Shown here: one piece after another, positions 8,473-9,894 of the stretch
Position numbering within the stretch: position 1 is the stretch's first letter
Layout: each line of letters begins with the position of its first letter
Origin: Saprospiraceae bacterium
Lineage (GTDB): Bacteria; Bacteroidota; Bacteroidia; Chitinophagales; Saprospiraceae
DNA length: 32,384 nt
NCBI GenBank assembly: GCA_024762995.1
Contig: JANTGI010000023.1
Coordinates: forward strand, 1-32,384
Reading direction: 5' to 3'
Position numbers and translations under genes: made by a program
Notes under the pieces: generated by a model
The model's database searches: none
What the model was told of the DNA's origin: nothing
What the model saw: only the letters and a program-made list of their open reading frames with translations

Positions 8473-8557
8473 TTCCCGCAGACCTGCCTACTGCCCGAAG
8501 GAAGGTAGGTGTAGGCAGATATTTCCCGCAGACCTGCCTACTGCCCGAAGGAAGGTA
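8473..8557. repeat. Exact 35-bp direct repeat, period 50
   Basis: TTCCCGCAGACCTGCCTACT and the following 15 bases occur identically at 8473-8507 and 8523-8557. Both copies carry ACCTGCC words shared with the GC-rich elements near 22.4 kb. Copies are separated by a 15-base spacer. It lies just after the yihY stop. Confidence 0.85.
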
Positions 8558-8755: not shown

Positions 8756-9073
8756 TTATTTCAATATTTCTTGTAAATCCACAAATCCACCCCCGTTAAC
8801 GGTTTTGATGCCGGCTTTATTTAAGATGTTGGTGGCGATGCCACTTCGGCGACCGCTTCGGCAGTAGGCGATAACGGGCTTGTTGTAGGCTCTGATTTCA
8901 TCTAAATGGTTTTTGATGACATTGTGGTCAATATTAATGGCTCCATCAATATGCCCGGCATCAAATTCTTCTTTTGTACGTACATCTAAAAGGAGTGCCC
9001 CATCTTGAGCCATTTTTTTAAAATCTACTCCTTCAGATTGCTTTTTTCCAAAAAGAAAGTCAAAAAATCCCAT
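8756..9073 (-). CDS. Single-domain rhodanese-like sulfurtransferase
   Basis: Small cytoplasmic rhodanese of 105 aa (PspE/GlpE type). The domain spans about residues 16-103: LLLDVRTKEEFDAGHIDGAINI, then the active-site loop with the persulfide-carrying cysteine C71 in YCRSGRRS. The six-residue loop CRSGRR fits sulfur rather than arsenate or phosphate chemistry. It probably moves sulfane sulfur from thiosulfate or a protein persulfide to an acceptor. There is no export signal. It diverges from the LysE-type transporter gene; a TAGCTTTG box at 9102-9109 and the CRP-like site at 9131-9146 lie upstream. Confidence 0.92.
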   Translation of the reverse strand: MGFFDFLFGKKQSEGVDFKKMAQDGALLLDVRTKEEFDAGHIDGAINIDHNVIKNHLDEIRAYNKPVIAYCRSGRRSGIATNILNKAGIKTVNGGGFVDLQEILK

Positions 9074-9101
9074 ACTGTTGTCATTTTAAATTATCGAAGC
9101 C

Positions 9102-9109
9102 CAAAGCTA
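9102..9109 (-). promoter_or_regulatory. Candidate rhodanese promoter -7 box (TAGCTTTG)
   Basis: On the minus strand TAGCTTTGGGC matches TAnnTTTG. It implies a transcript start near 9096 and a leader of about 22 nt. The centre of the CRP-type palindrome is then near -42. Confidence 0.5.
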
Positions 9110-9130
9110 GAAAAAAAAACCTTATTGACA

Positions 9131-9146
9131 TGTGATAGGGGTCACA
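9131..9146. promoter_or_regulatory. CRP/FNR-family operator (TGTGA-N6-TCACA)
   Basis: TGTGATAGGGGTCACA has two perfect TGTGA half-sites separated by six bases, which is the CRP consensus. Its centre (9138.5) is about 42-44 bp from the inferred transcript starts of both divergent genes, close to the -41.5 position of class II CRP-activated promoters. FNR-type sites (TTGAT-N4-ATCAA) fit less well. The regulator is not in the window. Confidence 0.6.
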
Positions 9147-9168
9147 TTTCCAGTCAATTATATTTAAG

Positions 9169-9176
9169 TATCTTTG
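9169..9176 (+). promoter_or_regulatory. Candidate lysE-like promoter -7 box (TATCTTTG)
   Basis: TATCTTTGCACA is a perfect TAnnTTTG element. TTTC at 9147-9150, 18 bases upstream, is close to the -33 TTTG consensus, and the CRP-like site abuts it. Start near 9182 gives a leader of about 98 nt. Confidence 0.6.
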
Positions 9177-9217
9177 CACAAATTGTTCCGGTCGAACATT
9201 TTGTAGATGGAATTCAG

Positions 9218-9244
9218 TAGATTAAAGGCCAGCCTTTTAATCTA
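9218..9244 (+). other. Leader hairpin upstream of the LysE-type gene
   Basis: TAGATTAAAGGC (9218-9229) and GCCTTTTAATCTA (9232-9244) form a nearly perfect stem with one bulged base. It lies within the inferred 5' leader and has no T-run, so it is a candidate 5'-UTR structure rather than a terminator. Confidence 0.4.
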
Positions 9245-9279
9245 TTAAGATTTCTAAACAATGACAAAAAAATAAAAAA

Positions 9280-9894
9280 ATGGATTATATTCTACCCCTG
9301 ATTGTTGGATTTTTAGCGGCATTTATAGGGCTGTTGGCACCTTCCATGCTGAATATGACAGCCGCACGTACTAGTATTGAAAAAGGAAAAGCAGCGGGAA
9401 TACAATTTGCTGCCGGTGCGGCTAGTGTGGTCTTTATCCAGGCTTTTATTGCGGTGACCTTTGCCAAATATTTGGTAGCTCATCCGGAGGTAATCACTCA
9501 GCTTAAGACAGCGGCCATATTTGTTTTATTGGCTTTGTCAGTGTTCTTTTTTATGCAAGCACGCAAAAAGTTTAAGGCGGAAGGAAAACAAAAGAAAGGC
9601 AGTAGTTATTTGACCGGTTTGGGGATGTCCTCATTAAATATGTTGGCTATTCCATTTTATTTGGCGATGGCTACATTGGCAGAAAGCAAGGGTTGGATGG
9701 AGATTGTACAGCCTTATTCTACGATTTATGTGGTGGGTGCAGTATTGGGGGCTTTTTCGTTATTTGCCACGTATGCGTCTTTTGCGGAAGTTATAGCTAA
9801 AAGGGCGGCTTTTATTGCGAAGAATATCAACTATATTTTGAGTGCGTTGTTTATTATCTTGGCTATATCGACCGCCATTCAAGTTTTTGGATGA
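9280..9894 (+). CDS. LysE-family transporter
   Basis: Integral inner-membrane protein of 204 aa with six hydrophobic segments (about 4-26, 38-62, 74-92, 108-130, 143-168 and 182-203), matching the LysE/RhtB amino-acid exporter size and layout. The N-terminal LAPSMLNMTAARTSIEKGKAAGIQFAAGAA resembles the family's first-helix and loop signature, where a Pro follows the first helix and a Gly-rich second helix comes next. The substrate is unknown. It is transcribed alone, from a promoter paired with the divergent rhodanese. Confidence 0.82.
   Translation: MDYILPLIVGFLAAFIGLLAPSMLNMTAARTSIEKGKAAGIQFAAGAASVVFIQAFIAVTFAKYLVAHPEVITQLKTAAIFVLLALSVFFFMQARKKFKAEGKQKKGSSYLTGLGMSSLNMLAIPFYLAMATLAESKGWMEIVQPYSTIYVVGAVLGAFSLFATYASFAEVIAKRAAFIAKNINYILSALFIILAISTAIQVFG

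Follow-up and report, generated by a model that had tools for sequence, protein, structure and literature searches.

A CRP-type palindrome shared by divergent rhodanese and LysE-type promoters as the probable operator of a sulfane-sulfur regulon in Saprospiraceae

The palindrome TGTGATAGGGGTCACA, located at positions 9131–9146 between two divergent genes of a Saprospiraceae bacterium, is quite probably the operator through which a CRP/FNR-family regulator governs a sulfane-sulfur/sulfide regulon. The regulator most likely activates both flanking promoters and is most likely CRP2, a protein encoded on C16 of the same genome. The original prediction was concerned with this single promoter pair, and the comparative results support widening it to a regulon.

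In the window, i.e., the whole stretch of 32,384 nucleotides that was analysed (contig JANTGI010000023.1), the minus-strand gene at 8756–9073 encodes a single-domain rhodanese of 105 residues (PF00581, E 7.5e-17), and the plus-strand gene at 9280–9894 encodes a LysE-type transporter of 204 residues (PF01810, E 2.7e-10). The predicted operator, given above as on the plus strand, has the form TGTGA-N6-TCACA and is common to both promoters without belonging to either strand. Each promoter contains a −7 box of the type TAnnTTTG, TAGCTTTG for the rhodanese gene (9102–9109, read on the minus strand from 9109 to 9102) and TATCTTTG for the LysE-type gene (9169–9176, plus strand), separated from the operator by gaps of 21 bp and 22 bp, respectively. 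According to the accessible text of a study of Flavobacterium psychrophilum (PMC9723704), TAnnTTTG lies at −12 to −5. With the boxes set at these positions, transcription is predicted to start near 9097 on the minus strand and near 9181 on the plus strand, and relative to these predicted starts the operator centre falls at −41.5 for the rhodanese gene and at −42.5 for the LysE-type gene. The perfect palindrome and its coordinates, the two boxes and the identities of both gene products, all of them part of the original prediction, proved to be right, and the predicted starts agree with its placement of the operator centre near the class II CRP position. Two further features were observed at this locus. 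A strong hairpin at 9216–9248 (folding z −3.4) falls within the leader predicted for the LysE-type gene, and the corresponding leader in the same-genus genome G026 is shorter and unlike that of the window. A G+C-rich direct repeat of approximately 33 bp (around 8476–8508 and 8524–8556) is present between a BrkB-like gene and the rhodanese gene.

Class II CRP promoters, such as those bound by Escherichia coli CRP and NtcA, combine a palindromic dimer site near −41.5 with a −10/−7 box and the absence of a −35/−33 element, and the same arrangement is found here with respect to the predicted starts. In contrast to those systems, the −7 box has the Bacteroidota form TAnnTTTG, the targets are sulfur genes rather than genes for carbon or nitrogen, and the candidate regulator carries a cysteine motif with no obvious cAMP or 2-oxoglutarate signal. 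The site, TGTGA-N6-TCACA, does not match an FNR-type site, which has the form TTGAT-N4-ATCAA.

Perfect copies of TGTGA-N6-TCACA occur three times in the 3.68-Mb genome and not at all in the reversed control. With up to two mismatches, 10 matches are found in the window where 12 are expected, and with up to one mismatch the whole genome contains 65, against 40 in the reversed control. The palindrome frequency is about what the base composition gives; the palindrome alone proves nothing, and its count, being at chance level, was dropped as evidence. One perfect copy, on C82, lies inside an outer-membrane-efflux-like open reading frame (ORF). The other, TGTGATACTGGTCACA on C7, is intergenic, lies 21 bp from TACCTTTG, and is flanked by divergent genes for an exported-looking rhodanese and a 534-residue membrane protein, called sulfur-transport type by its look; both intergenic copies are therefore placed at divergent promoters with a rhodanese gene adjoining. 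Unlike the palindrome alone, the composite of palindrome and box exceeds chance. With up to two mismatches, 13 composites with a gap of 21 bp and 8 with a gap of 22 bp are found in this genome, each against 2 in the control. Five of these 21 composites lie within ORFs, and in two cases the contig ends before any ORF is reached. Rhodanese-like genes follow five of them, and a metallo-beta-lactamase (MBL)-rhodanese fusion gene on C16, the LysE-type gene and a thioredoxin-like gene follow one each; the remainder precede genes for cytochrome-like, DsbD-like, porin-like or unassigned proteins, several of the target names in this genome having been assigned by eye.

The divergent gene pair and its site are kept in all three other genomes of the genus that contain a composite (G026, G131 and G203). 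In G026 the 16-mer is identical and both boxes are present, with most of the bases between them differing. In G131 and G203, where the site reads TGTGATACGCATCACA and TGTGACGGATATCACA on the LysE strand, the same two genes have boxes at 21 and 22 bp, and the six middle bases are changed with the half-sites unchanged. The family scan found no composite in G250, of the same genus (79% complete). Conservation of the palindrome in relatives that keep the gene pair had been put forward as a check on the original prediction, and these three genomes bear it out; the kept pair, palindrome and boxes also support its proposal that one regulator may serve both genes from one site. In other genera the LysE homologues mostly lack both the site and rhodanese neighbours. 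A rhodanese gene is nearby in only 3 of 30 LysE-homologue loci, and in G042 the homologue lies between two rhodanese genes. A plasmid search with the LysE protein gave no match.

Across the family, 298 Saprospiraceae genomes were scanned for TGTGA-N6-TCACA-N19-24-TAnnTTTG, and the composite was found in 94 of them, with 4 matches in all for the reversed control. The 143 distinct composites that were fetched and read include 135 with an ORF of at least 55 residues starting within 350 bp, and 8 without. Pfam searches of these 135 downstream ORFs identify rhodanese domains in 52, MBL domains in 26, thioredoxin in 13, Sulf_transp and Pyr_redox_2 in 6 each, HTH_Crp_2 and DUF983 in 4 each, and SulP in 3. 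Beside rhodanese, the frequent target kinds are persulfide-dioxygenase-like proteins, as which the MBL-rhodanese fusions are presumably to be counted, together with thioredoxin, YeeE and SulP; some of the Pyr_redox_2 targets we take to be similar to sulfide:quinone reductase (SQR). In three loci of G198 and G251 (L170, L171 and L218), TGTGA composites precede genes for exported-looking proteins with a stretch like GVGTSTPGAKLMVVG, and in each of these two genomes a Cys-less E-type CRP homologue (helix types are defined below) is encoded beside one such site.

The gap between palindrome and box is 21 bp in 93 of the 135 sites and 22 bp in 35, with 20 bp in five and 23 and 24 bp in one each, so that 128 fall at 21 or 22 bp. 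A TTG in the −33 place is present at a single site, where approximately 9 would be expected from the spacer background. The rigid spacing and the missing −33 TTG resemble a class II activator-dependent promoter, as may also be said of the two promoters in the window. It is rather unlikely that site and regulon are real and the regulator instead represses, occupying the −33 region and leaving it in response to a sulfur signal. A dimer at −41.5 could also block RNA polymerase, and the accessible text of PMC6955866 reports that oxidative-stress genes rise in a mutant of PgRsp, the Porphyromonas gingivalis relative of the regulator; a repressor, however, needs neither the fixed gap nor the absence of the −33 TTG.

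As to the protein that would act as activator from this site, six CRP/FNR genes in the genome score above the Pfam cut-off. Two of these, encoding CRP2 and CRP1, overlap in tandem on C16, approximately 6–8 kb from the MBL-rhodanese gene, and their products are the only ones of the six with an SRExxSR helix (SREAISR in CRP2 and SREVISR in CRP1). Both thus share the RExxxR recognition helix of E. coli-type cAMP-CRP, and either could bind the site. As read from the sequences, the CRP protein on C81 has KExxxR instead, and those on C47, C54 and C37 are without the RExxxR pattern. The sensor domain of CRP2 contains the cysteine motif GDSCSMAFSCCM, of the CxMxxxCC type, in the region of the cyclic-nucleotide-binding domain (PF00027); at E 1e-4 this domain was detected in the Cys-poor CRP1 and not in CRP2. 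The order of a Cys-motif CRP gene followed directly by that of a Cys-poor paralogue is also observed in three related loci (L227:163-1456, L228:5941-7301 and L229:5822-7115), and the paralogue is possibly a heterodimer partner or an antagonist. An ORF that appears Cas9-like by eye (L228:1-2728) lies a few kb from one of these regulator pairs.

The composite is found in 60 of the 108 Saprospiraceae genomes with a strong CRP2 match (E ≤1e-60) and in 34 of the 190 others (p 3e-11, genome size being ignored). For any match at 1e-10, it is found in 89 of 229 genomes, against 5 of 69 without a match. Conversely, 48 of the 108 genomes with a strong match are without the exact composite, and 5 of the 94 site-bearing genomes are without a regulator match at 1e-10 (G038, G069, G110, G156 and G275). 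A composite lies in front of CRP2 orthologues in four loci (L077, L078, L164 and L167); in the scanned stretch of the regulator promoter in the genome studied here, no site with up to two mismatches was found.

The closest homologues of CRP2 in named genomes are from Saprospiraceae (87% identity), and among 80 homologues from such genomes, 78 contain CxM..CC. The helix of these 80 homologues falls into two types, an E-type, SREaiSR, in 10, and a V-type, SRVviSR, as in Flavobacteriaceae, in 70, two of which have TRVVISR. A V-type homologue from P. loveana (L299) is 42% identical to CRP2. PgRsp belongs to the same superfamily; the accessible text of PMC6955866 describes it as autoregulated, binding to the bcp promoter and linked to oxidative-stress genes, proposes haem and redox sensing, and names Cys76 and Met78. 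In that text the terms 'binding site', 'consensus', 'rhodanese' and 'palindrom' are absent. Compared via the published residue numbers, Cys76 and Met78 would correspond, with an offset of one residue, to Cys77 and Met79 of L299. A Cys-x-Met in the sensor domain is shared with the PgRsp group; in CRP2 it reads CSM.

Near the 80 named-genome regulators only two TGTGA composites are present, both at one locus, and none lies within approximately 6 kb of the regulator in the 10 E-type loci. A different palindrome was therefore searched for. With no motif assumed, the commonest palindrome in the class II place around the 70 V-type regulators is GTAAC-N4-GTTAC, with 76 composites in 56 of the 70 loci, 68 of them at one spacing, and none in the reversed control. 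Written as TGTAAC-N4-GTTACA, it has the same 16-bp frame as TGTGA-N6-TCACA, with the fourth base of each half-site changed from G to A, and it shares the spacing and gene kinds of the TGTGA sites. In the rows scanned, which were part of the whole, the genes behind the GTAAC composites encode TauE/SafE, MBL-rhodanese, rhodanese, SulP, Sulf_transp, DUF983, peroxiredoxin-like and NrfD-type polysulfide reductase proteins, and a regulator itself. In a class-level sample of 295 genomes, the TGTGA composite is found in 30 and the GTAAC composite in 61. DUF983-type targets occur under both operator types (L079, L168, L189, L223, L268, L274, L285, L369 and L371), and this recurrence suggests that DUF983 takes part in the handling of sulfur or thiols. 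A thioredoxin-like protein of approximately 220 residues likewise recurs in similar form, after a TGTGA-type site in one genome (L123, on C10 of G000) and after a TGTAAC site in another (L377, in G053).

The same covariation is seen within Saprospiraceae, where 57 genomes were typed as E and 23 as V, four of the former (G026, G131, G203 and G250) by similarity and the others by reading of the helix. Of the 54 TGTGA sites in E-type genomes, 45 have a sulfur gene behind them, against none of the 9 sites in V-type genomes (p 2e-6); the corresponding numbers are 43 of 64 in untyped genomes and 3 of 8 where the only homologue is Cys-less. The TGTAAC composite is present in 11 of the 298 genomes; by type, it occurs in 9 of the 23 genomes typed as V and in 2 of the 57 typed as E (p 1.3e-4). 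The two types are not distinguished by the presence of TGTGA alone (E-type, 33 of 57; V-type, 8 of 23; p 0.08). Both comparisons are indicative only, the helix-read genomes having been chosen partly by site status. Most of the 12 TGTAAC sites lie, as judged by eye, before sulfur or thiol genes (MBL-rhodanese, TauE-like, SQR-like, YeeE-like and DUF983-like). Exceptions to the helix rule are G053 and G122, which are E-type with a TGTAAC composite, and L264, which is V-type with a divergent TGTGA composite.

In three genomes with a V-type Cys-motif regulator (G240, G274 and G002; loci L160, L161 and L162), TGTGA composites precede PaaA/PaaC-like genes, a type with three members among the 135 Pfam-scanned ORFs; these sites are probably read by another regulator. 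V-type genomes thus have TGTGA composites in front of genes unrelated to sulfur, which implies that the family has further readers of this motif. It is nevertheless improbable that another CRP/FNR protein of the cell, e.g., one encoded on C47, C54, C37 or C81, reads the site in the window. The six CRP/FNR genes, the five site-bearing genomes without a regulator match and the non-sulfur targets would allow for it, but the proteins on C47, C54 and C37 do not have the RExxxR pattern, the covariation of helix and operator follows the Cys-motif regulator, and genes for regulators of this type are themselves among the targets. That the palindrome is a functionless product of chance is scarcely credible, for despite the chance-level frequency of its three perfect copies it is kept in three relatives, in two of which the spacer has changed, and the composite exceeds its controls both in this genome and in the family.

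The sites, their spacing, the gene content and the covariation of helix and operator are computed results, and they suggest how a CRP2-type activator may work. A dimer bound at 9131–9146 would be centred at approximately −41.5 in the rhodanese promoter and −42.5 in the LysE-type one, would contact RNA polymerase at both, replacing the missing −33 element, and would most likely activate both. The binder is most likely CRP2, perhaps together with its tandem paralogue CRP1. The position of the CxMxxxCC motif within the sensor domain makes a thiol-based signal, for example persulfide, the leading guess, and sulfide-derived persulfide or polysulfide may switch the regulator on by modifying its cysteines. 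The rhodanese would then move sulfane sulfur, and a sulfur metabolite may be what the LysE-type protein exports; the slot comparable to that of LysE is often occupied by a TauE/SafE-type protein in Flavobacteriaceae loci.

It appears, from the comparison of helices and sites, that a close relative of the regulator may recognise a variant site with one base pair changed in each half. In E. coli CRP this base pair is reportedly contacted by Glu181, and Val, Leu and Lys at this position are said to relax or change the preference (Ebright and colleagues). In an alignment with an NtcA chain, TRVTVTR is found where the V-type regulators have SRVVISR, with the Val in the aligned place. NtcA of cyanobacteria binds GTAN8TAC at approximately −41.5 (PMC3898017, accessible text), and the V-type operator GTAAC-N4-GTTAC is itself a GTAN8TAC. 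A term search of the accessible text of PMC12531629 returned nothing on residue 181 or Bacteroidota. A more general proposal, which we regard as evenly balanced between being right and wrong, is that the cysteine-motif CRP/FNR group of Bacteroidota consists of persulfide/polysulfide sensors activating one conserved sulfur regulon, the operators of which all switched from TGTGA to TGTAA half-sites alongside a single helix change from Glu to Val, as a natural counterpart of the classic residue-181 specificity mutants of CRP.

The persulfide-sensing regulators CstR, SqrR/BigR and FisR, members of the CsoR and ArsR families and a sigma-54 activator, control genes for rhodanese, persulfide dioxygenase, SQR and sulfite exporters. 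In contrast, the predicted reader described here belongs to the CRP/FNR family, and to our knowledge the known persulfide sensors all belong to other families. The kind of element is already known; the group of regulators, the regulon that they would control and the naturally occurring switch of operators appear to be new, no description of them having been found in a literature search conducted largely by abstract, with subscription journals mostly outside its scope. If the proposed role is true, a persulfide sensor would be added within the CRP/FNR superfamily, and a testable regulon for the handling of sulfide and sulfane sulfur would be available in a phylum that is very common. Proteins such as the LysE-type transporter and DUF983 would be tied to sulfur metabolism, and there would be a natural series in which to follow the joint change of a regulator and the operators throughout its regulon.
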